Assembly: GCF_001482285.1 (NCBI RefSeq)
Contig: NZ_LOEP01000022.1
Location: 1 to 64,000, forward strand
DNA length: 64,000 nt
Reading direction: 5' to 3'
Origin: Haloferax sp. Q22
Lineage (GTDB): Archaea; Halobacteriota; Halobacteria; Halobacteriales; Haloferacaceae
Under the pieces are notes generated by a model. The model was given only the letters and a program-made list of their open reading frames with translations. It was not told the origin of the DNA and did no database searches. Both the position numbers and the translations under genes were made by a program. The first letter of the stretch is position 1; each line of letters begins with the position of its first letter. Below are positions 10,650 to 61,924 of this stretch, one piece after another.

Positions 10650-10707
10650 GCCGAGTGACAGTATCCCCCAATAACGCTTAAACCGCCCTCGCGCCTAACC
10701 AACGCTC

Positions 10708-11130: not shown

Positions 11131-12783
11131 ATGCTAGAGATACCGGGCTGGATACCGTTCCAGCGGTTGGCCGCGCTCCTCGCGCTCCTCGCGGCCGCCG
11201 TCGCGCTCGCCGTCGTCGACAGACCGACTCGGTTCTCGGCGGCGCTCCGGCGGCGCTTCCTGTTCGGTCTCCCGCTCGGAACGCTCGTCAGCGCCGGCGG
11301 CGTCCTCCTCGTCTATCTCGTCGTGCAGGACGGCTGGTCGTCGTGGTACCGGCCCATCGTCATCCCGTTCCGGGCGTGGTCGTACTTCTACCCGACCGGG
11401 ATGCTGACCGCCGCGTTCGCTCACTCCAGCGCCGGCCACCTCGTCGGCAACCTCGTCGGCACGCTCACGCTCGCGCCGGTCGCGGAGTACGCGTGGGGAC
11501 ACTATCCGACGCGTCGGGGGTCCACGTCGTTCGGGTCGGCCCGCGAGAATCCCTACGTCCGGTCGCTGGTCGTCTTCCCCGCGGTCGTCGTCGGCGTGGG
11601 GCTTCTGACCTCCGTCTTCGCGCTCGGCCCGGTCGTCGGCTTCTCCGGCGTCGTGTTCGCGTTCGCCGGCTTCGCGCTCGTCTTCCGGCCGCTGACGACT
11701 ATCTTGGCGTTCGTCTCGGGGCGCGTCGTCAGCCTGTTTTACAACGCGATGCTCTCGCCCGAAGTCGTCTCGTCGGCCCGTCCTATCTTCTCGACGCCGT
11801 GGTGGTCGCAAATCGCCATTCAGGGCCACGCAATCGGCTTCCTGTTCGGCGTCCTCCTCGGCGTGTGGCTCAGCCACCGCCGCGAGGGGTCGAACCCGCC
11901 CGCCCTCCGGAGCTTCGCCGGCATCCTCCTGTTTTCCGTGAGCGAGTCGCTGTGGGCGGTCTACTGGTACCGCGGCGGCGAGACCTACGTGCTGTTTCGC
12001 GCCGTCGGCTTCGCGCTCGTCGTCGCGCTCGCGACCATCGTCGCGCTGACGGTCGCGGCCTCCGACAAGCCGCTCCGAGAGTACGCGCCCGACAACTCGC
12101 TGTTTTCGGCCCGCCGCTGGCAGGTCGGCGTCGCCGTTCTCCTCGTCGTCGTCGCGGCCCTGTCGGGACCGGCGATGCTGTACAACACGTTCACCGCGAG
12201 CGGCGACGACCTGCCGGGCGAGAGCGTCTCGGTCAGGGACTACGACGTGACTTACGCCGAGGACGTGCCGAACGGGCTGACCGCCGTCTTCGACATCGAA
12301 CTGTTCGGCGAGTCGACGACGACCAACACCTCCGGGGTCATCGTCAGAAGCGAGCGGCGCGGCATCTGGACCACCGCCGTCTCGACGAGTCGGCTGGCGT
12401 TCGACGGCGAGTCGACGGTTAGGCTCGGCGGCCTCGGCTGGCGCGAACGGGTGACGGCGGTCCGCGACGGCTACGTCGTCACGGGCGCGGGAACCGCCTA
12501 CCGGGTGTTCCTCGTCGCCGACGGCGAGGCGCGGTTGGCCTACCAGACCGGTCCGGTCCGGGCCGAACCGGTGGTCTCCCGGCGGAACATCTCAGTCGTG
12601 CCGACGGCGACGGGCTACGACATACAGGTGTCGTCGGACAGCGGGACCGTCAGGGGGCCGATGCCGACCGAGAACGCGAGCACGACGCTCGACGGCATTC
12701 GGTTCGTCCGAGAGAAGTCGTTCGTCTTCGCCGAGTCGCGGGGGACGAAAGTCCGGGTCGCGCGACAGGAAACGTACAATTAG
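11131..12783 (+). CDS. Rhomboid family intramembrane serine protease with large C-terminal extracytoplasmic domain
   Basis: A 550-residue protein. The rhomboid core occupies about residues 45-250. AFAHSSAGHLVGNLVGT (His98, His103, Asn107) is the usual HxxxxHxxxN loop, VGFSGVVFAFAG carries the catalytic Ser172 in GFSG, and QGHAIGFLFGVLLG carries the catalytic His233. Two to three further hydrophobic segments run to about residue 350. The remaining 200 residues are hydrophilic and beta-rich, with repeated acidic strands. The H. volcanii orthologue region also holds a rhomboid gene as I recall. TATA-like TTCTTTATC at 11095-11103 implies a leader of at most a few bases. Substrates unknown. Confidence 0.88.
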   Translation: MLEIPGWIPFQRLAALLALLAAAVALAVVDRPTRFSAALRRRFLFGLPLGTLVSAGGVLLVYLVVQDGWSSWYRPIVIPFRAWSYFYPTGMLTAAFAHSSAGHLVGNLVGTLTLAPVAEYAWGHYPTRRGSTSFGSARENPYVRSLVVFPAVVVGVGLLTSVFALGPVVGFSGVVFAFAGFALVFRPLTTILAFVSGRVVSLFYNAMLSPEVVSSARPIFSTPWWSQIAIQGHAIGFLFGVLLGVWLSHRREGSNPPALRSFAGILLFSVSESLWAVYWYRGGETYVLFRAVGFALVVALATIVALTVAASDKPLREYAPDNSLFSARRWQVGVAVLLVVVAALSGPAMLYNTFTASGDDLPGESVSVRDYDVTYAEDVPNGLTAVFDIELFGESTTTNTSGVIVRSERRGIWTTAVSTSRLAFDGESTVRLGGLGWRERVTAVRDGYVVTGAGTAYRVFLVADGEARLAYQTGPVRAEPVVSRRNISVVPTATGYDIQVSSDSGTVRGPMPTENASTTLDGIRFVREKSFVFAESRGTKVRVARQETYN

Positions 12784-47887: not shown

Positions 47888-48100
47888 CTACCGCAGATAG
47901 CCGAGGTCGGTCAGCTGTTCCGCTATCTCCTGGAACTCCGACTCAGAGAGGTCGCCGCCGGAGCGCTCGTGTTGGATGACGATGCTGCGCAGGAGGAACC
48001 GGACGAGGTCGCTCGTACTGGAGAACGTGGTTCCTTCGAGCGTGTCGTCGACGCGAGCGGCCAACTCCTTCGGTATCGAGACCGTCGTGTACTCGGTCAT
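47888..48100 (-). CDS. Ribbon-helix-helix (CopG-type) DNA-binding protein
   Basis: A 70-residue protein with MTEYTTVSIPKELAARVDDT as the DNA-binding strand and first helix, then FSSTSDLVRFLLRSIVIQHE as the second helix. The last 22 residues (LSESEFQEIAEQLTDLGYLR) are an extra helix. Typical archaeal CopG regulator. A perfect palindrome lies 21 bp before its ATG, where autoregulation would act. No toxin gene adjoins. Confidence 0.85.
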   Translation of the reverse strand: MTEYTTVSIPKELAARVDDTLEGTTFSSTSDLVRFLLRSIVIQHERSGGDLSESEFQEIAEQLTDLGYLR

Positions 48101-48120
48101 GGCTCGAACGTGGCTCCGGG

Positions 48121-48134
48121 TGGGGTTAACCCCA
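48121..48134. promoter_or_regulatory. Perfect 14-bp palindrome upstream of the RHH gene
   Basis: TGGGGTTAACCCCA, fully self-complementary, centred 27.5 bp upstream of the RHH start codon (48100), which is the TATA-box position for a leaderless gene. The GTTAAC core can double as a TATA element. A likely operator for the encoded regulator. Confidence 0.6.
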
Positions 48135-48238
48135 ACGGTGGGTCGCGAACCAAACGTTTGTCGCGGTTTTTCGGCGCTTACCGGGAGTATCACCGAAGGT
48201 CGGGGGTTTTTCCATGCGGGACATCCTATACACGTTCG

Positions 48239-48565
48239 ATGGCCGCGAGACCGCCCCAAAACGACACATCAGAGCCGGACTCAATCGAATTCGGTATCGC
48301 CGCGCTCGCCGCCGATGTCGACGCCGCAGACATCGACTACCCGGCAGACGCGAGAGAGATTGCGCGGGCGCTTGACGACGTCGCCGTGCCGATAGACGCC
48401 GCGGGCAACACGGTCGCGATAAGCGACGCCCTCGCCGCTGCGCCGAAAGACCGGTTCGACTCCCGCCGCGACCTCTTGGAGACGCTCCACCCCGTGTTCG
48501 AGGAGTTCCGCGCCAAGGCGTCGAAAAGTCTGATGGGTCGGCTCCGTTCGCTCGTCCCGTTCTGA
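48239..48565 (+). CDS. Small haloarchaeal protein (DUF5789-like)
   Basis: A 108-residue acidic protein: SIEFGIAALAADVDAADIDYPADAREI then ALDDVAVPIDAAGNTVAISDALAA and a basic helical end ASKSLMGRLRSLVPF. The FGxAAL...YPAxAxEI...IPxDxxGxT order resembles the haloarchaeal DUF5789 family, though with a longer C-terminus. Function unknown. ATG at 48239 is preceded by CCTATACACG (48226-48235), which is too close to be a TATA box, so a short 5' leader is likely. Confidence 0.62.
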   Translation: MAARPPQNDTSEPDSIEFGIAALAADVDAADIDYPADAREIARALDDVAVPIDAAGNTVAISDALAAAPKDRFDSRRDLLETLHPVFEEFRAKASKSLMGRLRSLVPF

Positions 48566-48635: not shown

Positions 48636-49544
48636 TCACTCCAGTTCTTCGATTTGTTTCATCTGCTCGCGGTGTAACGAGAGGATGAGGTCCGAGAGCA
48701 CGCCGAACATCAGCAGTTGCACACCGAAGAGGATGCCCGCCGCGGAGACGACGGCGATGACCTCGTGGGAGATAGAGCGGATGAACCACTCGTAGGCGAC
48801 GTAGCCGGCGAGGCCGACCCCGGTCGCGGTCGACGTGAGCCCGACGCTGCCGAAGTAGAAAAGCGGGTTGTTGGTCTTGGCGCGGCGGTACAGTTCGAGG
48901 AAGATGATACCGCCGTCACGGACCGGGTTGAGGTTCGTGTCCGAGCCGTTCGGCCGCGGGTAGTAGGTCGTGGGGACGACCGTCGTCTCGATGCCGCGTT
49001 TCGCGCACTCGACGGCCATCTCCGTCTCGATGCCGAAGCCGTCGGAGGTGAGCGTCATGTCGAGGAACGACTCGCGGGTGAACGCGCGGTAGCCGCTGAG
49101 GATGTCGCGGAAGTCCTGGCCGTGGATGAACGCGAACGCCCGGTTGATGATGCGGTTTCCGACCTTGTTCAGCCGCGTCATCGCGCCCGGCCGCATGTCG
49201 GCGAAGCGGTCGCCGATGACGTGGTCGTACCCCTCGGTGAGCGGTTCGAGCATCTTCGTCGCGTCGCCCGCCTCGTAGGTGCCGTCGCCGTCGAGCATCA
49301 AGACGTACGTCGCCTCGATGTGCTCTTCGACCGCCTCCCTGACCGCCTGTCCCTTCCCGCTCCCGCGCTGTACGACGACGTGCGCGCCGGCATCCTCGGC
49401 GAGCTCCCGCGTCCCGTCCGTGGAGTCACCGTCGATGACGAGGACGTTGTGGAACCCCTCGTCTCGGTAGCTGGCGACGACCTCGGCGATAGTCTCCGCC
49501 TCGTTGTAGGTCGGGACGAGGACGCAAACGTCCGCGTAGTCCAT
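48636..49544 (-). CDS. aglJ: AglJ-type dolichol-phosphate glycosyltransferase, N-glycan linking sugar
   Basis: A 302-residue GT2 enzyme. VCVLVPTYNEAETIAEVVAS, VLVIDGDSTDGTRELAED and YVLMLDGDGTYEAGDATKM hold the nucleotide-sugar DxD-type motifs. DRFADMRPGAMTRLNKVGNR and GFGIETEMAVECAKRG are dolichol-phosphate-hexose-synthase landmarks. Two C-terminal membrane helices (about 225-285) anchor it. In H. volcanii AglJ attaches the first (linking) hexose to dolichol phosphate, and the gene sits at the same place relative to aglB. TATA CTTTTATACT at 49565-49574 supports the ATG at 49544 over one 24 codons upstream. Confidence 0.92.
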   Translation of the reverse strand: MDYADVCVLVPTYNEAETIAEVVASYRDEGFHNVLVIDGDSTDGTRELAEDAGAHVVVQRGSGKGQAVREAVEEHIEATYVLMLDGDGTYEAGDATKMLEPLTEGYDHVIGDRFADMRPGAMTRLNKVGNRIINRAFAFIHGQDFRDILSGYRAFTRESFLDMTLTSDGFGIETEMAVECAKRGIETTVVPTTYYPRPNGSDTNLNPVRDGGIIFLELYRRAKTNNPLFYFGSVGLTSTATGVGLAGYVAYEWFIRSISHEVIAVVSAAGILFGVQLLMFGVLSDLILSLHREQMKQIEELE

Positions 49545-49564
49545 CAGCGGGACATCCAGCGGGC

Positions 49565-49633: not shown

Positions 49634-49655
49634 CTCGGTGGGAAAACCCCACACC

Positions 49656-50810
49656 ATGCGCGCACGCCTCCGTCGCCTCCTCGCCGCGACGTTCGGACTC
49701 CTCTCTCTGACCGGGGTGCCCTACCTCGTCTATCTCACGTTGCTCCGGGTCGTCGACACCACGGGGTCGCCCGCCCGGAAGTGCCCGGACGAGCCGACCG
49801 TGAGCATCGTCCTTCCGACCTACAACGAGGCGAGCATCATCGAGGCGAAGCTCCAAGACATCCTCGCACTCGACTACCCGATGGAGAAAATCGAGGTGGT
49901 CGTCGCCGACGCGAGCGACGACGACACGCCCGCGGTCGTCCGCGACTTCTTCGCCGGCCGCGACGCCCCCGAACTGACGCTCCTCCACGACGACGAGCGC
50001 CGGGGGGTCGCACCCGCCCTTAACGAGGCGTTCGCGGCGGCGAGCAACGAACTGCTCTTCCGAACCGACGCCGATTCGAAGCTCGCCCCGGACGTGCTCC
50101 GGCAGGCGGCGGCGAACCTCTCGGACCCGACCATCGGCGCGGTGACGGGCCAACAGTCCGAAGTCCTCGGCGACAGCGAGGTCGAATCGGACTACCGCGG
50201 CATCCTCACGAAGATTCAGGGCCTCGAATCCCACCTCGACTCGACGTTCATCTTCCACGGCCCCTGCTTCGCGTTCCGCGCCGAGGACTTCGTACCCATC
50301 GACCCCGACTCCCTCGCCGACGACACCGAACTCGCGCTCCGCATCCGCCGGGCCGGCAAGCGCGTCGTAATGGACCCCGCGATGGCGTTCACCGAGTCCG
50401 GCGTCTCCGAGTTCTCGAAGCGCCGCCAGCGCAAGGACCGCCGGGCGATGGGCCTGCTCAAACTCCTCGTCCAGAACCGGGACATGCTCGGCCGCTACGG
50501 GTTCTACGGCACCGTCGTCCTCCCGTTCAACTGGTGGTTCATGGTCGTCTCGCCGTGGCTGCTCGCGGCGAGCGTCGCACTGGCGACTGTCGCCGGCGTC
50601 CTCCTCGCGGGGCCGCTCGGCCTCGCCGTTCCGGGCGCCGTCGCGGCCTTCGCGTGGGCCGGCCAGTCTGAACGCCTCGGTCCGCTCCAGCCGCTGTACG
50701 CCGTCTTCGACTCGCAGGTGTCGCTGCTCGTCGCCGCGGTCGAACTCCTCCGCGACGAGGGCGACGGCACGTGGGAACTCGACCGGGAGTCGAGGGAGTA
50801 CTTCGAGTGA
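49656..50810 (+). CDS. Membrane-bound family 2 glycosyltransferase
   Basis: A 384-residue GT2. An N-terminal membrane helix (LLAATFGLLSLTGVPYLVYL) is followed by VSIVLPTYNEASIIEAKLQD, VVVADASDDDTPAVV, LLFRTDADSKLAPDVLRQA (DxD) and DDTELALRIRRAGKRVV; the RRQRKDRRAMG block is the usual QxxRW-type position in an altered form. Three hydrophobic segments (about 290-350) close the catalytic unit. The family resembles cellulose-synthase-like or chitin-synthase-like processive enzymes and AglI/AglE-type enzymes. Sugar unknown. Its end overlaps the following GT4 gene by GTGA. Confidence 0.85.
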   Translation: MRARLRRLLAATFGLLSLTGVPYLVYLTLLRVVDTTGSPARKCPDEPTVSIVLPTYNEASIIEAKLQDILALDYPMEKIEVVVADASDDDTPAVVRDFFAGRDAPELTLLHDDERRGVAPALNEAFAAASNELLFRTDADSKLAPDVLRQAAANLSDPTIGAVTGQQSEVLGDSEVESDYRGILTKIQGLESHLDSTFIFHGPCFAFRAEDFVPIDPDSLADDTELALRIRRAGKRVVMDPAMAFTESGVSEFSKRRQRKDRRAMGLLKLLVQNRDMLGRYGFYGTVVLPFNWWFMVVSPWLLAASVALATVAGVLLAGPLGLAVPGAVAAFAWAGQSERLGPLQPLYAVFDSQVSLLVAAVELLRDEGDGTWELDRESREYFE

Positions 50811-51871
50811 ACGTTCTCTACGTCACGACGCGGTATCCTCCGCACACCGGCGGCGTCGAGACCCACGTCGCCGAGCTTGCGTCCCGGTTCGCCGCGGCGG
50901 GACACGACGTGACGGTCCTCACCGCCGACGCCGAGGGACTCACCCGCTCGGCGGAGTACCGGGAGGGCGTCCGCGTGATTCGACACCCCGGCGTCGCCCC
51001 CGGCGGCGCGTTCCACGTCGCCCCGGAGATTCTGGCGACCCTACGCCGTCTCGTCGGCGACGCCGACATCGTCCACGCCCACAACTACCACTCGCTTCCG
51101 CTCCTGTTCGCGGCGCTCGGTACCGACGCGGAGACGCCGTTTGTCGCCACCCCGCACTACCACGGCGGGAGCGCCTCCGCGCTCCGGGACAAACTGCTGT
51201 CCGTCTACCGGGTTCCGGGCCGCTGGGCGCTCTGCCGCGCCGACGCCCGCATCGCGGTCAGCGGCTGGGAGCGCCGGCAGCTCGAAGCCGACTTCGGCGT
51301 CGAGGCGACGGTGATTCCGAACGGCCTCGACGTGGCGCGGTTCGCCGAGGCGTCCCCCGGCCCCGAGTGGGCGGACCGCGACTACCTGCTTTCTGTCGGC
51401 CGGTTAGAGGAGTACAAAGGCGTCCAGCACGTGATTCGAGCCCTCCCCGACCTCGATTACGACCTCGCGGTCGCCGGAGCCGGCGACTACGGGTCGGAGC
51501 TGAAGCGACTCGCCCGCGAGGTCGGCGTCGAAGACCGCGTTCACTTCCTCGGCTTCGTCGCCGACGAGGACCTGCCGGGGCTGTACGCCGGTGCGGCGGC
51601 GTTCGTGACGATGTCGGAGTTCGAGGCTTACGGGATGACGGTCGCCGAGGCGCTCGCAGCGGGCACCCCGTGCGTCGTCCGCAACGCGGGAGCGCTCGTC
51701 GACTGGGCCGAGCGCCCCGACTGCGTCGGCGTCGACCCCGCGACCGTCGTCTCGGGCGTCGAGCGCGCCGTTGCCCTCGACGCGCCGGCCGAACCGCTCC
51801 CAACGTGGGAGGACGTGGTCGAACGGACGGCCGCCATCTACGACTCAGTCTGTCACGGCGGGTGGCGCTGA
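50807..51871 (+). CDS. Family 4 glycosyltransferase, GTG start
   Basis: A GT4 of 354 residues that begins at GTG 50807 inside the stop of the previous gene (GTGA): VNVLYVTTRYPPHTGGVETH, DIVHAHNYHSLPLLFAAL, AVSGWERRQLEADFGV, VIPNGLDVARF, LLSVGRLEEYKGVQHVIRAL and the E-x7-E donor motif in SEFEAYGMTVAEALAAGTPCV. An in-frame ATG at 50771 lies inside the preceding gene. Retaining transferase with unknown sugar; part of the aglJ-aglB island. Confidence 0.88.
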   Translation: MNVLYVTTRYPPHTGGVETHVAELASRFAAAGHDVTVLTADAEGLTRSAEYREGVRVIRHPGVAPGGAFHVAPEILATLRRLVGDADIVHAHNYHSLPLLFAALGTDAETPFVATPHYHGGSASALRDKLLSVYRVPGRWALCRADARIAVSGWERRQLEADFGVEATVIPNGLDVARFAEASPGPEWADRDYLLSVGRLEEYKGVQHVIRALPDLDYDLAVAGAGDYGSELKRLAREVGVEDRVHFLGFVADEDLPGLYAGAAAFVTMSEFEAYGMTVAEALAAGTPCVVRNAGALVDWAERPDCVGVDPATVVSGVERAVALDAPAEPLPTWEDVVERTAAIYDSVCHGGWR

Positions 51872-51883: not shown

Positions 51884-52795
51884 CTACGCGTCGCCGCGCC
51901 GTCCGAAGAACGCTGTTTCGCCGGCCTCGCCGAGCGATGACCGGTCCACCGTCACGCCGAGTCGGGACTCGTGCTCGGCCGCGGTCGCCTGCACGCGTCG
52001 GAGCCGCCTGTCGAACTCGGCGCGGTCCCGCATCGGCGTCGGCGTCGGGAACGACTCGCGGGACGCCGCGACGGGGTACGCGAGGAGGAACGTCAGGCAG
52101 TCGTAGCCGCGTTTCATCGCGTGCGTGAGCGGCGGGCGCGAGCGTTCGAGCGGACTAGTCGGCGCGGTCGCGGCCCACTTGAGACAGCTCGTCAGCGTGA
52201 CGCCGCACTGGGCGTCGGCGACCTTCCCCGCGAAGTCCCGATAGCGCATCTCGTCGACGACCGACCGCTCGTAGCCGATGCTCTCGCGGACGGACCCGTG
52301 TTCGAGCCGGAGCATCGCGTCGTCGGCCAGCAACCGTCGCCAGAGGTCCCGGTCCTCCGAGGTCGGGAGGTTCCGGTAGGGAATCCGTTCGAGGAGCGAC
52401 GCGGGCGCGATGTTGAGCCCCTGCCCGTTCAGGTACAGCGGGCCGTCGAACCCCGCTTCGAACGCGTGGTAGACGCTGACGAAGTCGCGGATGCAGTCGT
52501 CGTACACGTCGTCGGCGTCCAGTTGGGGCAACACGTAGTCGCCGCGGGCTCGCTCGACCGCGATCTGTCTGTCGCGGCCGAGATGGCGTTCGGGGTCCGC
52601 GTCGAGTTCGACGACGCGAAGCGTCTCGTGTCGCTCTTGGAGGTCGCGCAGCAGCGAGACGCTCCCGTCGTCGGAGCCGCCGTCGACGACGAGCACCTCG
52701 AACTCGGGCGTGAGCTGGCCGAGGATACTCTCCAGCGAGCGCTCGAGCGTCTCGGCCATGTTGTAGTTGCAGACGGCGACGGTGTACCGGACCAT
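51884..52795 (-). CDS. Family 2 glycosyltransferase, soluble
   Basis: A 303-residue GT2. MVRYTVAVCNYNMAETLERS, then VLVVDGGSDDGSVSLLRDL, RGDYVLPQLDADDVYDDCI (DADD) and NLPTSEDRDLWRRLLADDA are the standard fold A markers. Unlike many GT2 enzymes the C-terminal half is polar, with no membrane anchor. The gene begins 2 nt after the stop of the sulfatase-like gene upstream on the same strand, so those two form an operon and may act on the same glycan residue. Confidence 0.85.
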   Translation of the reverse strand: MVRYTVAVCNYNMAETLERSLESILGQLTPEFEVLVVDGGSDDGSVSLLRDLQERHETLRVVELDADPERHLGRDRQIAVERARGDYVLPQLDADDVYDDCIRDFVSVYHAFEAGFDGPLYLNGQGLNIAPASLLERIPYRNLPTSEDRDLWRRLLADDAMLRLEHGSVRESIGYERSVVDEMRYRDFAGKVADAQCGVTLTSCLKWAATAPTSPLERSRPPLTHAMKRGYDCLTFLLAYPVAASRESFPTPTPMRDRAEFDRRLRRVQATAAEHESRLGVTVDRSSLGEAGETAFFGRRGDA

Positions 52796-52797: not shown

Positions 52798-53763
52798 TCA
52801 GGCGTAGCCGAGGTCGCGGAGCCGGTCCTTCATCTCCTCGCGTTCCGAGGCGGACGCCGACTCCGCGTCGCCGGCGTGGACCCGCCGCCGGTCGTCGCCG
52901 TCCGCGACGGCCCACGGTACCTCGACGAGTTCCGGCGTGCGGATACCCTTCGGGTGGCCGTAGCCCCGAATCTGGGCGGGAAAGACGCGCTCGCCGAGTA
53001 AGTTTCCGTGGTCGCTCGTGACGACGAGCCGACCGGAAACGGCGGACCGAAGCTCCTCGACGGAGTCCATCACCAGCGAGAGGTTGTCCCCGTAGGCCTC
53101 CCACAGTTCGTCTCTCGAGACGGCACCCATCCAAAGCGCGTCCCACGGCGTTCGGGGTCGCCCGCCGGCCTCGCCGTCGCCCTCGCCGTGGGTCTCGCCC
53201 TCTATCTGCCACCCCGCGAACTGGAGAGTTCGTGCGCCGATAAACGGGTGGTGGGGCTGCATGTAGTGGACGACGACGCGCTTGTCGGGGTGCGCCTCGT
53301 GAGCTTCGATGGCCGCCTCCGTCACGTCGCTCGGGTGGACCGTCCGGAGTTCGTCGTCGAAGTCGTCGAGCCAGACCTCGTACAGCTCGTGGAACGCGTC
53401 GCCCGCCTCCCGCGAGACGTACGGGTTCGCGGTCACGTACACCGTGTCCCCGTACTCGCCGCCGGTGAAGTTCTGCCGAACCCACTCTCGGGTGGTGCTT
53501 CCGGCGCTCGTCACGTGTCGGTACTCGTCGTACGCCGACGTGTCGACGCGTTCTTCGAAGAGGTCGACGCGGCAGGCGTCGAGGAGAACGAGCGTGTCCC
53601 AGTCCTCGTCCATCACGCGCACGCTGTCGCTCCGGGTGGGAGAGACGTTCGTGTGGAACGGCCCGACGACGTATTCGAAGAACCGCTCGCGCCACCAGAA
53701 CGTATCGGTGAAATTGCGACGAAGCCCGTCGAGGACGTAGCGGGCTTTATCGAGCACAGCCAT
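52798..53763 (-). CDS. Alkaline-phosphatase/sulfatase-superfamily protein (321 aa)
   Basis: A protein of 321 residues without a signal peptide. TLVLLDACRVDLFEERVDTS is the first metal site (Asp), MQPHHPFIGARTL the middle one and VVTSDHGNLLGERVFP the DHG site; it ends with DRLRDLGYA, a tail shared with the two other members in this island. The formylglycine signature C/S-x-P-x-R is absent; SAGSTTREWVRQNF occupies the expected place, so Ser or Thr would have to serve as nucleophile. Sulfatase, phosphatase or transferase activity cannot be told apart. TATA at 53787-53796 supports the start. Confidence 0.78.
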   Translation of the reverse strand: MAVLDKARYVLDGLRRNFTDTFWWRERFFEYVVGPFHTNVSPTRSDSVRVMDEDWDTLVLLDACRVDLFEERVDTSAYDEYRHVTSAGSTTREWVRQNFTGGEYGDTVYVTANPYVSREAGDAFHELYEVWLDDFDDELRTVHPSDVTEAAIEAHEAHPDKRVVVHYMQPHHPFIGARTLQFAGWQIEGETHGEGDGEAGGRPRTPWDALWMGAVSRDELWEAYGDNLSLVMDSVEELRSAVSGRLVVTSDHGNLLGERVFPAQIRGYGHPKGIRTPELVEVPWAVADGDDRRRVHAGDAESASASEREEMKDRLRDLGYA

Positions 53764-53786
53764 GGCTGTGTGCTCTCTGGGGAGAG

Positions 53787-53796
53787 TATTTATAAT
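53787..53796 (-). promoter_or_regulatory. TATA box of the first sulfatase-like gene
   Basis: GATTATAAATA on the minus strand, centred about 28 nt before the ATG at 53763. The divergent FkbM gene has its own element AGTTATTACC at 53858-53867. Confidence 0.6.
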
Positions 53797-53893
53797 CTCT
53801 ACCTCCGGTCCCGAATCGAGGACGTGACCGCCTCGAAATCACATCTGATAATTTGAGGAGAACAGTTATTACCGGAATGGCGCACCCACCGGT

Positions 53894-54529
53894 ATGCACT
53901 CCGTCAACTACATCTACAACAACACGATACGGGAGGCGCTCCCGCGGAAGGTAAGCGAGTTCTCCGGCGTGAAGGTGAAAAAAGAGCGGCTCTTCGACCT
54001 GCGAGCCGACCGCCCGAACTACAAGCCGCGGCAGGTGAGCGCGCTGACCGAGCGCGTGGGGGAGACCGACAGCGTCGGAATCATCGGCGGTGGATGGGGC
54101 GTCTCGGCGGTCATCGCGGCGGAACACGGTGAGCGCGTGACCGTCTACGAGGCGAGCGACGAGCAGGTCGAACACGTGAAGACGACGCTCGCGCTCAACG
54201 GCGCGGACACGAACACGGACGTGGTCCACGGACTCGTCGCAGAGGGACGGAACGTCTACGGCGATAGCTCGGCTGCGGTCGTCTCGCCGGGAGACCTCCC
54301 AGCGTTCGACGTGTTGGAGATGGACTGCGAGGGTGCCGAGGTGCCGATTCTCCGCGGTCTGACGTGTCGCCCGCGGGTGTTAATCGTCGAGACTCACCCG
54401 AAGTTCGACGCGCCCGACGAGACCGTCTGCGAACTCGTCGAGTCGCTGGGCTACGATATCGCATCCGTGAGGCCCAAAAAAGAGGCGTCCGAGGGAAGCG
54501 TCGTCGTCGCGGAGCACTCGCGAGACTGA
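53894..54529 (+). CDS. FkbM-type SAM-dependent methyltransferase
   Basis: A 211-residue FkbM methyltransferase. VGIIGGGWGVSAVIAAEHG is the SAM motif I (replacing the usual DxGxxxG by GGG), VTVYEASDEQVEHVKTTLAL motif II, and DVLEMDCEGAEVPILRGL is the FkbM hallmark, followed by VLIVETHPKFDAPDE. FkbM proteins O-methylate sugars. In H. volcanii, AglP methylates the hexuronic acid of the N-glycan, so this gene may be the local counterpart, though not clearly homologous. Confidence 0.87.
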   Translation: MHSVNYIYNNTIREALPRKVSEFSGVKVKKERLFDLRADRPNYKPRQVSALTERVGETDSVGIIGGGWGVSAVIAAEHGERVTVYEASDEQVEHVKTTLALNGADTNTDVVHGLVAEGRNVYGDSSAAVVSPGDLPAFDVLEMDCEGAEVPILRGLTCRPRVLIVETHPKFDAPDETVCELVESLGYDIASVRPKKEASEGSVVVAEHSRD

Positions 54530-54550
54530 CCGGCGTTCCCGCCCGTGTTC

Positions 54551-55855
54551 TCAGATGTAGCCGAGCTTCGAGAGCTGGCTCTTCGTCGAATCGGCGAGTT
54601 CGCGGTCGGCGCGGGGCGTCCCGACGGTCGCCGAGTCACGGGCGTGTGCGTCGAGTCGCGACCGAGGGTCGACGCCGCCGGGGTCGGCGTACTCGACGAA
54701 CCCGCTCACGTCCTCGTGACCGTAGTACCCGGCGAACGCGATACCCCGAAGCTTCTCGTCGTACCGCTCGATGTCTTGGGCCGGGAATCCGTTCTCCCGG
54801 AGCTGGTCGAACGTGAGCGGGCGGAGCCCGTGGAACTCGGTCATCGCCTCGCGGTCTGACGGGAGGGCGCGCAGGTCGTGGCCCGCCGTCTCCGCGGGGG
54901 CGTCCACGTCACAGAGCCCGAGCACGGTCTGGAACACGTCCACGAGACTCGCGGTCTCGCGGACGGTCTCTCGTCCGCCGCGACCGTCCGAGACGACGAG
55001 CGGGACGTGGGTCAGCTCGTCGTAGAGCCCGTAGCGGTGGCCGGCGAGGTCGTGTTCGCCGAACAGCTCACCGTGGTCGCTCAGCGTGACGACGACGTCG
55101 AACTCGTCGGTGAGTTCGTCGAAGATGTCGCGGTACACCTCCGAGAGGTACCGCGCGCAGTCGTTATACGCCCGCCAGAAGAGCTCGCTGTCGAAGTCGC
55201 CGGCGAGCACCTTCTCCGAGTCGGCGTACATGTCCACGCTGCGCGCGTCGGTCGTCGCGTACTCGGGCGGTGCCCAGTACGGCGAGTGGACCTCCATCAG
55301 GTTGGCGAAGAGGAACTCGGACTCGCCGAAAGACCACGAGCGGAGCTTCCGCAGGAAGTGCGCCGCGCCGTCGTCCTCGGCGCGGAACATCTCGTACCCG
55401 GCTTTCAGCGACTGCAGGGTTCGACTGTCGCCGTCCAGCACCGCGCGAACTACCGACTCTGGGTACCGAAGCGGCCCCGAGAAGAACCCGTCTTTGCTCC
55501 AGTTGTACGTCTCCGGAAGCGCGTTCAGGATGTGCCAGCCGTACTCTGTCTCGTCGAAGCCGCGCGTGAACTCGAACAGGTGTGATATCAGCGGGTTCGC
55601 GCTGAAACACCGCGTCCTGTAGCCGGCGTCGGAGAGCAGCCCCGCCAGCGTCGGTCGGTCGTCCGGGAGGTACTCGTGCTGCGAGTGAGCACCGACCTCG
55701 CTCGGGTACGCGCCCGTGAACAGCGAACCGTGGGCCGGAACCGTGTAGCTCCCGGTCGAGTACGCCTCCTCGTACCGGACGCCGGGAAGCCAGTCGAAGT
55801 GCTCGTCGAACACGTCCTTTCGCATCGTGTCGAGGACGATGACTGCAACGTTCAT
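54551..55855 (-). CDS. Alkaline-phosphatase/sulfatase-superfamily protein (434 aa)
   Basis: A 434-residue member. VAVIVLDTMRKDVFDEHFD (first metal site), YSTGSYTVPAHGSLFTGAYPSEVGA in outline with Thr or Ser in place of the formylglycine Cys, LFANLMEVHSPYWAPPEY and VVVTLSDHGELFGEHDLAGH (metal site) are all present. The C-terminus QLSKLGYI is the family tail. No signal peptide, so it acts in the cytoplasm or on the inner membrane face. The ATG at 55855 agrees with a TATA element TCTTATGCC near 55882-55890; the frame upstream is spurious. Confidence 0.82.
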   Translation of the reverse strand: MNVAVIVLDTMRKDVFDEHFDWLPGVRYEEAYSTGSYTVPAHGSLFTGAYPSEVGAHSQHEYLPDDRPTLAGLLSDAGYRTRCFSANPLISHLFEFTRGFDETEYGWHILNALPETYNWSKDGFFSGPLRYPESVVRAVLDGDSRTLQSLKAGYEMFRAEDDGAAHFLRKLRSWSFGESEFLFANLMEVHSPYWAPPEYATTDARSVDMYADSEKVLAGDFDSELFWRAYNDCARYLSEVYRDIFDELTDEFDVVVTLSDHGELFGEHDLAGHRYGLYDELTHVPLVVSDGRGGRETVRETASLVDVFQTVLGLCDVDAPAETAGHDLRALPSDREAMTEFHGLRPLTFDQLRENGFPAQDIERYDEKLRGIAFAGYYGHEDVSGFVEYADPGGVDPRSRLDAHARDSATVGTPRADRELADSTKSQLSKLGYI

Positions 55856-55961
55856 CAGCCTCACAGCGACGGTTATCCGGCATAAGACCGAGGGCCTAGT
55901 TATCAGAACTGGTACTCTGGTGTCATCCCGACGAGTGGTCCCGGCGTGACCCGGGTGGGTG

Positions 55962-57077
55962 TCACTCCCAGTCGCCGGTGATTTCCGCCCGTTCCACCGC
56001 GTCGTCGACCACGCGTCGCATGTTCCGCCGGAACGCCTCGACACCGAACCGGTCGGCGAACGCGGATATCTCCTCGGGAGTCCACGAGACGCCCCGCTCC
56101 GAGAACTCGGCCACCGCGGCCTTGATGTGCTCGACGCCTCGCTCGTAGACGTACCCGTTGTCGCCCGGCGATATCTGAACTCGCGTGAACCCGTCGTCGA
56201 CGCCGAGAACGGGCGTCCCGGCGGCCATCGCCTCGATGGGGACGATACCGAAGTTCTCGGACCGCGTGTTCATGAGGAGCGCCCGCGCGTGGCTCATGAG
56301 CGCGCGCTTGTCGGACTCCGAAACGCGCCCGGCGAAGACGACGTTCGACGACCCGGCCGCGAGTCGTTCCAGTCGCTCCCTGTCCGGGCCGTCGCCGGCC
56401 ACCACGAGCGTCTCGTCGAGGTCGGTGAACGCCTCGACGACCTCGTCGATGCGCTTGAGATGGTGGAGCCGCGAGAGGACGAGGTAGAACTCCTCCTCGG
56501 GGACGACGGCCGTCCGGTCGGTCTCCGGGGAGAACTCGTCGACCGCGACCGGTGGGTAGACGACGCTGATTCGGTCCGAGTCGACGCCCCAGTGGACGTT
56601 CAGTCGGCGCTCCGTGAGTTCCGAGTTGACGACGTAGCGGTCCGGAGTCGGTCGCTGTGTGTAGAGCACCCGGCCGCCGAGCGCGTACGCGAGTCCGGCC
56701 GTCGAGTCGATCTCCTCTTGGAACCGGTCGGTCTGCGCCCGCGGCGTCGCGTGGATGTACTGAATCGACACCTGTCGGTCCATCGGGATGTACCACCCGG
56801 GCGCGAGGCCGCTGCCGATGATGACGTCGGCGTCGTGGAGCGCCTCGACCCGAGACCAGACGAACGCGTCCGTCACCTCGCTCGGAATCGGCGTTCGCGC
56901 GAGCGCCCGAGAGAGGAGCGAGTCGGTGGTGCGAACCGTGTCGATGTCCGAGGGGACGGCGGCGTCCCGGTCGATGTCGGTGACGATGGGCGCGTCGAAA
57001 CACCGCGCGAGCGCGGTCGTCACGCGGTCCGCACCGCCGCTGTTTCGATACTCGGTCTGGGCGATACGAACGTTCAT
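55962..57077 (-). CDS. Family 4 glycosyltransferase
   Basis: A 371-residue GT4. MNVRIAQTEYRNSGGADRVT, IIGSGLAPGWYIPMDRQVSI, YVVNSELTERRLNVHWGV, SVVYPPVAVDEFSPE, LVLSRLHHLKRIDEVVEAF, and RSENFGIVPIEAMAAGTPVLG with the E-x7-E site. The GGADRV turn near the N-terminus substitutes for the usual GGxE acceptor loop. Sugar unknown. Separated from the downstream sulfatase-like gene by 106 bp containing that gene's own promoter. Confidence 0.87.
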   Translation of the reverse strand: MNVRIAQTEYRNSGGADRVTTALARCFDAPIVTDIDRDAAVPSDIDTVRTTDSLLSRALARTPIPSEVTDAFVWSRVEALHDADVIIGSGLAPGWYIPMDRQVSIQYIHATPRAQTDRFQEEIDSTAGLAYALGGRVLYTQRPTPDRYVVNSELTERRLNVHWGVDSDRISVVYPPVAVDEFSPETDRTAVVPEEEFYLVLSRLHHLKRIDEVVEAFTDLDETLVVAGDGPDRERLERLAAGSSNVVFAGRVSESDKRALMSHARALLMNTRSENFGIVPIEAMAAGTPVLGVDDGFTRVQISPGDNGYVYERGVEHIKAAVAEFSERGVSWTPEEISAFADRFGVEAFRRNMRRVVDDAVERAEITGDWE

Positions 57078-57147
57078 CTATCGACCGACGGGTCGGCGAA
57101 AAAGCGGGAGACGGTCATCATACGTTGGGTGTTACTTCTTCGGTCGA

Positions 57148-57157
57148 TTTATTATAG
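57148..57157 (+). promoter_or_regulatory. TATA box of the third sulfatase-like gene
   Basis: TTTATTATAG, centred 26-27 nt before the ATG at 57179; leaderless transcript expected for the sulfatase-GT4 operon that follows. Confidence 0.65.
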
Positions 57158-57178
57158 TTCACCGTTTTCATCGCGCAA

Positions 57179-58585
57179 ATGCGAAGCGTAGTCCTCATCT
57201 GTCTCGACACCGTCCGAAAGGACTATTTCGACAGATACGCTCGACGAATTCCCCAGCGGGCAGACGTCTCGTTCGAGGAGTGTCGAGCGGCGAGTTCGTG
57301 GTCGGTTCCCAGTCACGCCAGCATCATGCTGGAATCACTCCCCCACCGACACGGGGTCCACGACTACAACCGCGGCTACGACGGCATCGATCCCGACGAC
57401 ACCTTCCTCAGCCGACTACCGGACCACGAGTCGCTCGGGGCCAGCGCGAACGTCTACGCCTCGTCCGCGTTCGGGTTCAACGAGCTCTTCGACGAGTTTC
57501 TGGAGGTTTCGCCCGACCGTCGGTACCCGAAGGGGATTCACGTCGGGCGGTTCGGCTACGACTTCGACGGCGACGGGATACGGAAGTACCTCGGTTTCAT
57601 CCCCGCGGCACTCACGCACGACTACCCGGTACAGAGCTTCCTGAACGGCGCGTCGGTAGGCATCGAGCGGATGGTCGAGAAGCTCCCCGTCCCGACGCCG
57701 TTCGACGACGGTGCGAAGATAATCTCCAAGGTCGGAGCCGACGCCGTCGAGCGAACCGACGGTCCGTTCTTCCTGTTTACGAACTTCATGGAGGCGCACG
57801 CGCCGCACCGCGCCGCCGCCCACTACGACTCGGAGCTGTACTCCGCGCCGAACACGTGGGACTCCAGCGCGTTCGACAAGTGGGACATCAACCTCGGCGG
57901 TGAGGCCGGCCTCGAAGCCAACGAGAAGCACGTCACCTACTACCGCGAGCTGTACGGCGCGGCCATCGAGTACCTCGACCGTCAGGTGTCGGCGTTCATG
58001 GACCGGGTCCAGGCGGCCGCCGACCACGAAGTGACGTTCATCGTCACCGGCGACCACGGCGAGAACCTCGGAAAGGAGGAAGACGGCTACCTCCTCGGTC
58101 ACGACAGCAGCCTCTCCGAAGGGCTCGTCCACGTCCCGTGTTACATCGTGAACCCGCCGGAGGGGTACGACGAATTCGAAGACGAGCTGTTTTCTCATCT
58201 CGGTCTCGGCGAACTCATCGTCGGTCTCGCGAACGACGAGACACCCGACGTGTTCGAAGACCGCATCAGCGCCGAGCTGGTCGGCAGCACGAACGCGAGT
58301 CCGCCCGAAGACGCCGAGTACTGGACGCGGATGCTCCGAAGCGTCTACCTCGCCCCCGACGAGAAAATCGTCTGGGACTCGCTCGGAACCGGCCTGCGAT
58401 ACGAGCGGCGGGCCGACGGTGACGGCTGGCGTGAGGTCGGCGAAACCGACGAGTTCGAGGCGTTGGACGAGGCGCTGTTCGACGTGCCGATAGCCGAGTA
58501 CCAGCAATCCGCGGCCGCCGGCGAGCAGTCCGCCGACGTCCATCAGGCCACCCGTGACCGCCTCGAGGAACTCGGTTACCTCTGA
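57179..58585 (+). CDS. Alkaline-phosphatase/sulfatase-superfamily protein (468 aa)
   Basis: A 468-residue member. VVLICLDTVRKDYFDRYARR is the first metal site, CRAASSWSVPSHASIMLESL the nucleophile region with Ser-x-x-Pro-Ser-His in place of Cys-x-Pro-x-Arg, FLFTNFMEAHAPHRAAAHYD the middle site, and FIVTGDHGENLGKEEDGYLLGHDSS the DHG/H site. It ends TRDRLEELGYL. No signal peptide. Its TGA directly abuts the ATG of a GT4 gene (58586), so the two are an operon; they may modify the same sugar. A role in phosphoester or sulfate chemistry of the N-glycan is inference. Confidence 0.82.
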   Translation: MRSVVLICLDTVRKDYFDRYARRIPQRADVSFEECRAASSWSVPSHASIMLESLPHRHGVHDYNRGYDGIDPDDTFLSRLPDHESLGASANVYASSAFGFNELFDEFLEVSPDRRYPKGIHVGRFGYDFDGDGIRKYLGFIPAALTHDYPVQSFLNGASVGIERMVEKLPVPTPFDDGAKIISKVGADAVERTDGPFFLFTNFMEAHAPHRAAAHYDSELYSAPNTWDSSAFDKWDINLGGEAGLEANEKHVTYYRELYGAAIEYLDRQVSAFMDRVQAAADHEVTFIVTGDHGENLGKEEDGYLLGHDSSLSEGLVHVPCYIVNPPEGYDEFEDELFSHLGLGELIVGLANDETPDVFEDRISAELVGSTNASPPEDAEYWTRMLRSVYLAPDEKIVWDSLGTGLRYERRADGDGWREVGETDEFEALDEALFDVPIAEYQQSAAAGEQSADVHQATRDRLEELGYL

Positions 58586-59575
58586 ATGTCCATCGGAATC
58601 GTCACCGAACCGGACTGGGGTCTCGGCGGAATCGGCGTGTTCGGCGAGGAGGTGTGTCCCCGACTCTTGCGCCGCGAGGAGACGGTTCGCATCGAGGTCG
58701 ACCGAAACGGGGTCCGCTCGCTCCCGTTCCCCTCGGTGCTGACGTACGGGAAGCGCTGGCTGGTCGGCTCGAAGCTCCGCGACCGAATCGCGGCGTCGGA
58801 TGCGGCGGTCGTCTTCCTGCCGGACCACCGGTACCTGACGTTCGACCCGGGGTCGGTCCCGCAGACGGTGGTCCCGTACGTCCACGACATCCTCCCGGTG
58901 ACGACGCTGTTTTCCGACGTCCCGTCGACGCTCTTCGCGCGGCTCTACACCCGCCGACTGTCCGCGCTCGACGCCGCGATTTGCGCGAGTCGGTTCACGG
59001 CGTCCGACCTCCGACTGCGGACGCCGTTCGACGGCGAGACTCCCGTCGTCTACCAGGGCGTCGACCAGCTCCCGTCGAACCCCGAAGAGACGTTCGAGTA
59101 CGACCTCGTGTACGTCGGCTCGACCATCGACCGGAAGAACCCCGCGTTCCTGTCCGACTGCTTCGCCGCCGCGGAGGAGGCGGGGTTCAGTTGCGCGGCC
59201 GTCACCGACCGCGACGCAGAGCTTCCCGGAGACCGCTTCTCGGAGGTCTCGGCGGAGTCGCTCGGCGCGCTGCTCGCCGGCGCGAGGTTCTACCTGCACC
59301 CGTCGAAACAGGAGGGGTTCGGCCGTCCGCCGGTCGAGGCCCAACAGCTCGGGACGCCCGTCGTCGGGCTCCGAACGCCGATAAACGAGGAGGTGCTGGG
59401 CGAACCGTCCGAGGCGTGGCTCCCGATAGAGACGCCGACGGACCTCGTCGAAGTGCTGCGCGGCGACGGCGTCGACTACGAGGCGCTGGAAGCGCGCTCG
59501 GCCGAGAACGCGGCCCGCTTTTCGTGGGAGACGACCGCGGACGAAATATTCGACGTGCTGAGACGTTACAGATAG
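58586..59575 (+). CDS. Family 4 glycosyltransferase
   Basis: A 329-residue, somewhat short GT4: MSIGIVTEPDWGLGGIGVFG, VVPYVHDILPVTTLFSDVPS, DAAICASRFTASDLR, VVYQGVDQLPSNPEE, YVGSTIDRKNPAFLSDCF, and YLHPSKQEGFGRPPVEAQQLGTPVV in outline with the E-x7-E donor motif. The N-terminal acceptor domain is abbreviated. Starts without any spacer after the sulfatase-like gene. Sugar unknown. Confidence 0.86.
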   Translation: MSIGIVTEPDWGLGGIGVFGEEVCPRLLRREETVRIEVDRNGVRSLPFPSVLTYGKRWLVGSKLRDRIAASDAAVVFLPDHRYLTFDPGSVPQTVVPYVHDILPVTTLFSDVPSTLFARLYTRRLSALDAAICASRFTASDLRLRTPFDGETPVVYQGVDQLPSNPEETFEYDLVYVGSTIDRKNPAFLSDCFAAAEEAGFSCAAVTDRDAELPGDRFSEVSAESLGALLAGARFYLHPSKQEGFGRPPVEAQQLGTPVVGLRTPINEEVLGEPSEAWLPIETPTDLVEVLRGDGVDYEALEARSAENAARFSWETTADEIFDVLRRYR

Positions 59576-59661: not shown

Positions 59662-60474
59662 ATGGCCGAGAACGCGCGGGGACTCTCCGTACTCATCCCC
59701 ACCAAGAACGTCGGGGGGACGCTGCGTCGGTGTCTGGAGAGCGTCGCGGACATCGCCGACGAAATCGTCGTCTTGGACTCCTACAGCGACGACGAGACGC
59801 TCGATATCTGCGCCGAGTTCGACACCCGGGTCATCCAAGCCGAGTTCCGCGGGTTCGGTGAGCTTCGAAAGCGCCTCATCGACGAGGCCGAACACGAGTG
59901 GATATTCTTCATCGACGCGGACGAGGAGGTCTCCGACGAGTTGGCGCGCGACATCGAGCGCGTGCTTCGAGACGGGCGAGACGGCCTCTACCGCGTCGGC
60001 CGGACGAACAAGATGTTCGGGTCGTGGATGAAAGACATCGGCGGCGACCCGCTTCGGCTGGGGCCGAAAGCCGCGTTCGCGGTGCCCGACGACGTCGTCC
60101 ACGAGGTCGTCGAGCCCGCGCCGGGGTACGAGGTCGTCGAGTGTCTCGGCGTGTTGCGGCACTACACCTACGAGTCGATAAGCGAGTTCTTCCAGAAGTT
60201 CGACCAGTACACCTCGCTGGAGGCCCTCGAAATCGTCACCGAGGGGAAGTCACCGTCGCTGTGGCGCTACGCGGCCAAAGGGTTCGCGACCGCCGGCCGG
60301 CACCTGATTCTGGAGAAGGGTATCCTTGAGGGCTACGCCGCCATCCTGTTCGCCTCCTTCTCGTTTCAGTACCGGCTCGTCACCTACGGCAAGGTCCGCG
60401 AGTTAGAGGCCTTCCGGCGAGAGCACCCGGACGACTGGGAGCAGGCGTGGTTCGAAACGAGATGTAGCCGTTGA
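59662..60474 (+). CDS. Family 2 glycosyltransferase, WaaE/KdtX-like
   Basis: A 270-residue GT2: LSVLIPTKNVGGTLRRCLES, DEIVVLDSYSDDETLDICAE, WIFFIDADEEVSDELARDI (DAD) and RHYTYESISEFFQKFDQYTS. The KNVGGTLRRCLESVADIADEIVVLDSYSxD pattern is that of LPS-core beta-1,4-glucosyltransferase WaaE relatives. A hydrophobic end (YAAILFASFSFQYRLVTYG) may be a membrane-surface helix. It is followed after 10 nt by the flippase gene. TTTTATTTC at 59610-59618 is a promoter candidate, which implies a leader of about 25 nt. Confidence 0.86.
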   Translation: MAENARGLSVLIPTKNVGGTLRRCLESVADIADEIVVLDSYSDDETLDICAEFDTRVIQAEFRGFGELRKRLIDEAEHEWIFFIDADEEVSDELARDIERVLRDGRDGLYRVGRTNKMFGSWMKDIGGDPLRLGPKAAFAVPDDVVHEVVEPAPGYEVVECLGVLRHYTYESISEFFQKFDQYTSLEALEIVTEGKSPSLWRYAAKGFATAGRHLILEKGILEGYAAILFASFSFQYRLVTYGKVRELEAFRREHPDDWEQAWFETRCSR

Positions 60475-60484: not shown

Positions 60485-61924
60485 ATGAGCAAGAGCAAAT
60501 CACTCAAGATGGGCCGAGAGGTGATTCTCAGCCTCGGCTCGGACGTGGTGATGAGCCTCATCGGGTTCGTCGGTATCGTCGCGTTCGCTCGGCTGCTCGG
60601 CGACGTCGGCCTCGGCGAGTACCGTACGGTCGTCGCCGTGGCGATGGTTCTGGGACAGGTGGCCAACGGCACCGGCTGGGCGATTCGCAAGCGCGTCAGC
60701 GAAGTCGGCGTCGACCCACGGGACTACCTGAGTACGGGGCTCATCTTCCACGCGGCGTTCACGCTCTGTCTGCTCGTCGCGTTCGCCCTCTTGAACCCGT
60801 TCGTCGTCGACTACTTCGGGAGCGTGGAACTCGCCTACGCCGTCGTCCTCCTCGTTGCCGCGCTCGGCGTCTTCGAGATACTCACCCACCTCTACGCCGG
60901 CCTCGGCTACCCCGCGAACGCGTCGTGGATAGACGCGGTGCGGAGCGTCCTGACGCTCGGGTTCCAGATACTGTTCATCGTCTGGGGGCTCGGCTCCTTC
61001 GGCGTCGTCGCGGGGCTGGCGGTGGCGACGTTCGCGAGCGCGGGGATCACCGCCGTCGTCGCGAGCGTCTACCCGCGGATTCCGACTTGGAGCAGCGTGA
61101 GCCGACTGTACGAGTTCGGTAAGTGGAACGTTCCGACCCAGCTACTCCGGTCGTTCGACTCCCAACTCGACGTGCTCATCCTCCGGCTCGCGGTCGGCGC
61201 GGGACCGGTCGGCATCTACACCGCGGCCGCGACCGCATCCATGCCGGGCACGATGCTGGGCGGGTCGATAAAAGACGCGCTGTCCGTGAAGTCGAGCGGC
61301 GTCTCGTCCAGCGGCGAGCCGATACGGGCGGACCTCGTGAACTCGGTCTCGTACGCGGGGCTGCTCTCGATTCCGATTTTCTTCGGCGCGGCCGCCATCC
61401 CGCGGGAGTTGATGGTCACCGTCTTCGGCGGCGACTTCTCGGCCGCCGGGCCGGCGCTCGTCGGCCTCACGTTAGCGCCGGTCGCCGGGGTGTACATCGG
61501 GGCGTTCGAGGCGGCGGTCGAGGGAATCGACAGGCCGGAAGTCGCCCTGCGAATCAGGCTCGTCTCCACGGCCGTTCACCTCATCCTGTCGTTCGCGCTC
61601 GTCTGGCAGTTCGAACTCCTGGGCGTCATCGCGGCGATGGTGCTGACAAACTGGCTCGTCCTCGCGGCGTACCAGTTTTTCGCCCACCGGCACCTCGGCG
61701 GCGTCGCGGTCACCAGACCGATGCTCGCGCAGTTCGCGAGCGGAGCCGTCATGTTCGCCGCCGTCGAGCTCACCACGAGATACGTCGTGACCATCACCAG
61801 TTGGGTCTGGCTGTCGGTGGTGCTGGCGGTCGGCGTCGTCACGTACTTCGGGTCGCTGATCGTCGTGAGCCGCCACTTCAGAGAGACGGTCTACGGCTCG
61901 CTACAGGACGTGCTGGAGGGGTGA
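60485..61924 (+). CDS. Wzx/MATE-type polyprenyl-glycan flippase (AglR-like)
   Basis: A 479-residue protein with 12-14 membrane segments of the polysaccharide-export fold: LGSDVVMSLIGFVGIVAFARLLGDVGLGEYRT at the start in outline, FGKWNVPTQLLRSFDSQLDVLIL in the middle, GPVGIYTAAATASMPGTMLGG and IDRPEVALRIRLVSTAVHLIL later. Archaeal homologues (AglR in H. volcanii) are implicated in moving dolichol-linked glycan across the membrane before AglB transfer. Position between the last glycosyltransferase and aglB matches that role. Confidence 0.88.
   Translation: MSKSKSLKMGREVILSLGSDVVMSLIGFVGIVAFARLLGDVGLGEYRTVVAVAMVLGQVANGTGWAIRKRVSEVGVDPRDYLSTGLIFHAAFTLCLLVAFALLNPFVVDYFGSVELAYAVVLLVAALGVFEILTHLYAGLGYPANASWIDAVRSVLTLGFQILFIVWGLGSFGVVAGLAVATFASAGITAVVASVYPRIPTWSSVSRLYEFGKWNVPTQLLRSFDSQLDVLILRLAVGAGPVGIYTAAATASMPGTMLGGSIKDALSVKSSGVSSSGEPIRADLVNSVSYAGLLSIPIFFGAAAIPRELMVTVFGGDFSAAGPALVGLTLAPVAGVYIGAFEAAVEGIDRPEVALRIRLVSTAVHLILSFALVWQFELLGVIAAMVLTNWLVLAAYQFFAHRHLGGVAVTRPMLAQFASGAVMFAAVELTTRYVVTITSWVWLSVVLAVGVVTYFGSLIVVSRHFRETVYGSLQDVLEG

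Follow-up and report, generated by a model that had tools for sequence, protein, structure and literature searches.

Sulfatase-like proteins of a Haloferax N-glycosylation cluster as candidate sulfotransferases acting on the dolichol-linked glycan

Results

Three alkaline phosphatase superfamily proteins in an aglB-anchored cluster

The window analyzed here is the 64,000-nucleotide stretch at positions 1 to 64,000 of contig NZ_LOEP01000022.1 of Haloferax sp. Q22 (assembly GCF_001482285.1). It holds an aglB-anchored N-glycosylation cluster, running from AglJ to AglB, in which three proteins of the alkaline phosphatase (AP) superfamily, here called SulA, SulB, and SulC, are encoded amid genes for glycosyltransferases, a methyltransferase, and a flippase. 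SulA (321 aa; 52798-53763) and SulB (434 aa; 54551-55855) are encoded on the minus strand and SulC (468 aa; 57179-58585) on the plus strand. The original prediction, made from the letters of the window, had the three open reading frames at exactly these coordinates and was silent on the minus strand of two of them. The start of SulB is the ATG at 55855, and the resulting N terminus, MNVAVIVLDT, fits those of homologues, though an upstream GTG at 56044 is also open. Our analysis points, with a probability of roughly 0.7, to at least two of these proteins as enzymes that transfer sulfate to the dolichol-linked glycan.

SulB and SulC are sulfatase-like (Pfam PF00884, 94.7 and 54.5 bits), and SulA, which scores 17.8 bits against the same model (cut-off, 25), is of the subtype resembling the lipoteichoic acid (LTA) synthase LtaS and phosphoethanolamine (PEtN) transferases. 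Matches of the Sul proteins to the nucleotide pyrophosphatase/phosphodiesterase family PF01663 reached 16.1 and 21.1 bits, below the cut-off of 23, and the Pfam scan gave no sulfotransferase domain (PF00685 and relatives). SulB and SulC share 27% identity across 395 residues, and SulA has only short stretches in common with either, which indicates three old families rather than a recent tandem duplication. The Asp and DHG metal sites that had been read from the sequence are present in all three and near-invariant in the 33 to 45 homologues aligned per family: D62 (LLDAC), D251/H252 (TSDHG), and H270 in SulA (D62 kept in 44/45, the others in 45/45); D9 (VLDT), D260/H261 (LSDHG), and H273 in SulB (all kept in 33/33); and D10 (CLDT), D292/H293 (TGDHG), and H308 in SulC (H308 kept in 34/35, the others in 35/35). 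The best 19-residue Kyte-Doolittle means anywhere in SulA, SulB, and SulC are 0.73, 1.08, and 0.84. As had been claimed for signal peptides, no hydrophobic segment in any of the three suffices for a signal peptide or a transmembrane (TM) helix, and a cytoplasmic location is supported.

An alcohol at the nucleophile position

In profile alignments, TVPAH of SulB (Thr38) and SVPSH of SulC (Ser42) align with the C/S-x-P-x-R site of choline sulfatase, and His stands in place of the motif Arg in both. The corresponding segment of SulA is VTSAGSTTREW, with a family pattern of S-x-x-S-x-[TS]-x-E-W and no C/S-x-P-x-R. The formylglycine signature is thus absent from all three, as originally stated on the strength of Thr-Val-Pro-Ala-His in SulB, Ser-Val-Pro-Ser-His in SulC, and an unrelated segment in SulA. 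Position 38 of SulB is Thr in 33/33 homologues; at position 42 of SulC, 28 of 35 homologues have Ser, 7 have Thr, and none has Cys. By the SCGT motif of PEtN transferases we predict Ser89 as the nucleophile of SulA, with Ser86 as the alternative. Ser89 is kept in 41/45 homologues, the remainder having Cys (2), Ala (1), or Gly (1). Two SulA-family copies with Cys at the predicted nucleophile (SIGCSSPEW; L255:8761-9750 and L256:7770-9041) each adjoin a normal SulA copy.

No formylglycine-generating enzyme (FGE; PF03781) was found in the Haloferax sp. Q22 genome, which is 99.88% complete, in a search that did not include the anaerobic maturase anSME; PF03781 occurs in 33/293 Halobacteriales genomes. 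Despite the missing FGE, the same genome encodes a sulfatase with a canonical C-I-P-A-R motif and without the C-terminal tail described below (G000:C31:70674-71666; L003:1081-2571), whose modification may depend on an anaerobic maturase, or which may stay unmodified. A sulfated alcohol, unlike a formylglycine hydrate, cannot release sulfate by elimination, as is known from sulfatase chemistry and from formylglycine-to-Ser mutants, and because of this the lack of formylglycine is what would be expected of a transferase.

Structure prediction, suggested earlier as a check, gave an AP-superfamily fold for SulA and SulC (AlphaFold2 pLDDT, 88.9 and 92.8); SulB was assigned to the superfamily by PF00884. 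A single-sequence search of the Protein Data Bank (PDB) with SulA gave no match. Foldseek placed 22 PEtN transferases as the best 22 PDB matches of the SulA model, and the best matches of the SulC model were choline sulfatases. The SulB profile also matches EptA-type chains (1.7e-7). SulA has two N-terminal helices and no TM segment, and its C-terminal tail is modeled, with low confidence, as a helix that follows a flexible linker.

The L-x2-LGY tail

The C termini of SulA (RLRDLGYA), SulB (QLSKLGYI), and SulC (RLEELGYL) all fit the common L-x2-LGY tail that had been pointed out. Among 639 genes from control regions and FGE regions, a single one, itself AP-like, ends in this way, so chance does not explain the tail. 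Among sulfatase-like proteins the tail is found in 40/40 with T/S-x-P-x-H, in 27/27 of the SulA type, and in 0/22 with C-x-P-x-R, a count that leaves out about 40 further proteins whose motif could not be classed by a simple pattern. A second sample, of named plasmid genes retrieved with a different query, gave 10/10 for non-formylglycine motifs versus 0/9 for C-x-P-x-R (Fisher, 1.1e-5). Judged from these sequences, the tail is a clean marker of motif class, and shared descent accounts for part of this.

The idea that the tail is exclusive to sulfate enzymes proved too strong. A small CopG/ribbon-helix-helix-like protein near AglJ (47888-48259, minus strand) ends in QLTDLGYLR, and a similar one occurs in another locus (L252). 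Proteins of about 300 aa (MTLVVLALDALD...) that look like members of a further, PF01663-like AP family in glycan clusters also end with an LGY tail (L268:13289-14194, L269:7117-8022, L270:11976-12881, and L253:5053-5961). An exception of another kind is provided by the glycan regions of two genomes (L273 and L275), where AP-like genes stand in tandem sets of four or five and lack the tail.

Gene neighborhood and distribution

The glycan-island setting of the original prediction is borne out by NCBIfam profiles, which identify the two ends of the cluster. AglJ, a dolichol-phosphate glycosyltransferase, is encoded at 48636-49547 on the minus strand (TIGR04182, 453.9 bits; cut-off, 325), and the oligosaccharyltransferase AglB is encoded on the plus strand at 62196-65105 of the contig, passing the window end at 64000 (TIGR04154, 958.9 bits; cut-off, 450). 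Between AglJ and SulA, Pfam assigns a GT2 glycosyltransferase (49638-50810, plus), a GT4 glycosyltransferase (50771-51871, plus), and another GT2 glycosyltransferase (51884-52789, minus). An FkbM-type methyltransferase (53894-54529, plus; PF05050, 26.6 bits) separates SulA from SulB, and a GT4 glycosyltransferase (55962-57077, minus; PF00534, 98.3 bits) separates SulB from SulC. Downstream of SulC come a GT4 glycosyltransferase (58586-59575, plus; Pfam), a GT2 glycosyltransferase (59662-60474, plus; subthreshold NCBIfam glycosyltransferase matches), and an oligosaccharide flippase of the MOP type (60485-61924, plus; NF007773, 26.2 bits, subthreshold).

Homologues of SulA occur in 253/293 Halobacteriales genomes (E<=1e-10; one carries the annotation LTA synthase family) and those of SulC in 68/293 (E<=1e-40). 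SulB has matches in 235/293 (E<=1e-20), a figure that includes more distant sulfatase-like proteins, and its full-length relatives are 36-48% identical. We compared the surroundings of Sul homologues (38 regions, each up to 20 kb long) with 20 control regions, detecting genes by single-sequence queries, so that the counts are lower bounds: glycosyltransferases were present in 30/38 Sul regions versus 0/20 controls (Fisher, 1.7e-9), a flippase in 25/38 versus 0/20, AglB in 17/38 versus 0/20, and a second AP-like gene in 25/38 versus 0/20.

Sulfate activation genes

Most known sulfation uses 3'-phosphoadenosine 5'-phosphosulfate (PAPS) and one sulfotransferase fold. Canonical ATP sulfurylase (Sat) is present in 8/293 genomes and a true adenosine 5'-phosphosulfate (APS) kinase in about 21/293, and neither was found in the Haloferax sp. 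Q22 genome or in Halobacterium salinarum, whose glycans are sulfated. Nearly all genomes also gave weak P-loop matches (24-30 bits, most of them spanning about 50 residues), which were rejected as APS kinases, since true ones score above 140 bits. The Haloferax sp. Q22 genome does encode two proteins in tandem (G000:C52:149102-151156; L250:9103-10080 and 10204-11157) that resemble CysD, the small subunit of ATP sulfurylase. One such protein is encoded in the Hbt. salinarum type strain (L251:8929-9900), and homologues were found in nearly all haloarchaea examined. Their best models are those of CysD (77-82 bits; cut-off, 195), their sole significant PDB match is CysD (1zun, 2e-8), and their alignment to E. 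coli CysD spans the length of that protein at 22% identity. All 23 distinct C termini of these CysD-like proteins end in L-x2-LGYM (for example, RLRDLGYM). E. coli CysD ends in KKRQGYF at the aligned place, so a GY end is old in CysD. No cysN was seen beside the CysD-like genes in the flanks that were read, and no genome-wide search for cysN was made. The Haloferax sp. Q22 pair lies near a sugar-nucleotidyltransferase-like gene.

Relatives with an assigned function

The aglB cluster of Hbt. salinarum encodes two sulfatase-like proteins, VNG1056C (Agl30, a membrane protein) and VNG1057C (Agl31, soluble), which sulfate a dolichol phosphate (DolP)-linked tetrasaccharide; their deletion strongly lowers sulfation, and their expression in Haloferax volcanii renders the host glycan sulfated (Zaretsky et al. 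2025, PMC11980604). The original statement that such a chemistry is not assigned in this pathway was thus overtaken in 2025 by that study, and Agl7 had already been found in 2013 to contribute to sulfation of a dolichol-phosphate-bound sugar in the low-salt pathway of Hfx. volcanii (PMC3871713). In Halorubrum sp. PV6, the cluster includes a sulfatase gene, and the glycan contains a hexuronic acid that is sulfated or phosphorylated (PMC6137143). The 2025 study does not mention PAPS, a donor, a nucleophile, or formylglycine (PMC11980604), and a full-text search for AP-superfamily sulfotransferases with a Thr nucleophile returned nothing relevant beyond it.

A glycosyltransferase-rich contig of the Hbt. 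salinarum type strain carries, side by side, a homologue of SulC (459 aa, 39-41% identity over its full length) and one of SulA (29%), the latter with an N-terminal hydrophobic segment. An exact search for the NRC-1 primer sequences in the type-strain loci gave no match, because the cluster differs at the DNA level between the two strains (PMC10264941). C termini decoded from the published primers read HLEDLGYL for VNG1056C, LEELGYT for VNG1057C, and KELGYI for VNG1063H, a third sulfatase-like protein of the same cluster (PMC11980604). The primers for VNG1063H also decode to VHYFQPH, an exact SulA-family string (mean best score, 36.2 versus 14.0 for shuffled sequences), and by this peptide VNG1063H is clearly a SulA-family protein. 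The decoded ITDRTV of VNG1056C matches the SulA-family ITDRTI/ITDRAI at one conserved place, which is suggestive of membership in the same family and is not proof of it. An assignment of VNG1057C to SulB or SulC from its quantitative PCR primers was abandoned as ambiguous, as two reading frames fit.

Discussion

The conserved alcohol nucleophile in a genome without FGE, the likeness of SulA to PEtN transferases, the division of the tail between motif classes, and the tail of the CysD-like proteins in a genome that lacks canonical ATP sulfurylase and APS kinase are new here. Sulfate transfer itself has been demonstrated for relatives elsewhere; what we infer for the Haloferax sp. Q22 proteins concerns the donor, the intermediate, the docking, and the acceptor sugars. 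In the model that we favor, SulA, SulB, and SulC are cytoplasmic AP-superfamily sulfotransferases that would act on the DolP-linked glycan ahead of the flippase and AglB. The Thr or Ser nucleophile, T38 in SulB, S42 in SulC, and S89 in SulA, would be bound to metal and accept the sulfuryl group to form a sulfo-enzyme intermediate, and because an alcohol nucleophile cannot eliminate sulfate, the group would then pass to a sugar hydroxyl and not to water, as in PEtN and LTA transferases. Three paralogues from three old families could serve three acceptor positions on different sugars. Activated sulfate, as APS, would probably come from a stand-alone CysD-like enzyme, and since CysD-like and Sul proteins share the L-x2-LGY tail, docking is suggested: the tail may hold the two together or bind a common partner. 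The full version of this idea, in which the CysD-like enzyme makes APS and the Sul proteins, joined to it via the L-x2-LGY helix, take sulfate from APS and not from PAPS, is speculative, and we regard it as rather improbable in all its parts.

Several points weigh against sulfate transfer by the Sul proteins. The sulfatase-like domains of SulB and SulC are complete, and AP-superfamily enzymes with Thr or Ser also hydrolyze or transfer phosphodiesters. Ser89 of SulA gives way to Cys, Ala, or Gly in 4/45 homologues, whereas the neighboring Ser86 is invariant. The comparison of the Sul proteins with Agl30 and Agl31 covered primer-decoded peptides, and orthology to them is at most putative. Finally, no part in N-glycan sulfation was detected for VNG1063H, the one clear SulA-family protein of the Hbt. 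salinarum cluster (PMC11980604).

A variant of this model keeps the Sul proteins as sulfotransferases and gives them ordinary PAPS as the donor, with a tail unrelated to sulfate, such as a general stability or membrane motif. We rate this somewhat below even odds. The tail of the CopG-type protein near AglJ shows that it is not exclusive, the C-terminal GYF of CysD is old in that family, and P-loop proteins with a weak APS kinase match are present in nearly all genomes; set against this are the scarcity of canonical APS kinase (>140 bits) and Sat among the 293 genomes, the lack of both here and in Hbt. salinarum, and the perfect split of the tail between the motif classes of sulfatase-like proteins. 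A different group might also be moved. Known PEtN and LTA transferases are membrane anchored, work outside the cell, and use lipid donors, and a transfer of phospho-groups (phosphoethanolamine, phosphoglycerol, or a phosphosugar) onto the glycan in the manner of EptA, LtaS, or OpgB would agree with the 22 best fold matches of SulA, the EptA-type matches of the SulB profile, the weak PF01663 match of SulC, and the LTA synthase annotation of one SulA homologue. We nevertheless consider it unlikely: the Sul proteins, unlike those transferases, have neither a TM segment nor a signal peptide, their tail recurs on a protein of the sulfate activation type, and the sole tested haloarchaeal relatives move sulfate (PMC11980604).

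The original prediction left open whether these proteins are cytoplasmic transferases or hydrolases. The sulfate-adding transferase is well supported, with Agl30 and Agl31 as precedent, and the hydrolase is weakened by the missing FGE, the alcohol nucleophile, and the structural match of SulA. A sulfatase or phosphatase role, in trimming the glycan or in recycling sugars that bear sulfate, would account for the PF00884 domains and the choline sulfatase-like fold of SulC. Such a role is very improbable, however, for cytoplasmic proteins within a biosynthetic cluster that lack C/S-x-P-x-R, conserve an alcohol nucleophile, and bear a tail that C-x-P-x-R sulfatases do not have.

If the preferred sulfotransferase reading is right, proteins now labeled sulfatases or hypothetical appear in fact to add sulfate, and with homologues in most Halobacteriales, many annotations are probably reversed. 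The conserved alcohol nucleophile would offer a chemical reason for transfer over hydrolysis, and the tail-plus-motif rule would tell candidates for sulfate addition apart from candidates for sulfate removal in genomes. With canonical PAPS genes missing and a CysD-like enzyme bearing the same tail, the identity of the sulfate donor of haloarchaeal glycoproteins becomes directly testable; were the APS scheme true, the haloarchaeal sulfation system would differ from the PAPS pathway.

Among known systems, Agl30 and Agl31 are sulfatase-like AP proteins of an aglB-anchored cluster with an L-x2-LGY end, as read from the primer sequences, and in these respects resemble the Sul proteins; they belong to a different genus, and Agl30 is membrane anchored, whereas SulA, SulB, and SulC are not. 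Formylglycine sulfatases such as choline sulfatase (PDB 6g5z) share the fold and the metal residues of SulB and SulC. The Sul proteins differ from them in lacking C/S-x-P-x-R, in having His for Arg, in the absence of an FGE, in the LGY tail, and in a cytoplasmic, biosynthetic setting. The PEtN transferases (EptA and relatives), which belong to the AP superfamily, catalyze transfer, and use a Thr nucleophile, are the best fold match of SulA, but the Sul proteins have no membrane domain, are not exported, and work in another setting than PEtN and LTA transferases. CysD is unrelated to the Sul proteins in fold and is connected to them by the tail that haloarchaeal CysD-like proteins have in common with SulA, SulB, and SulC.

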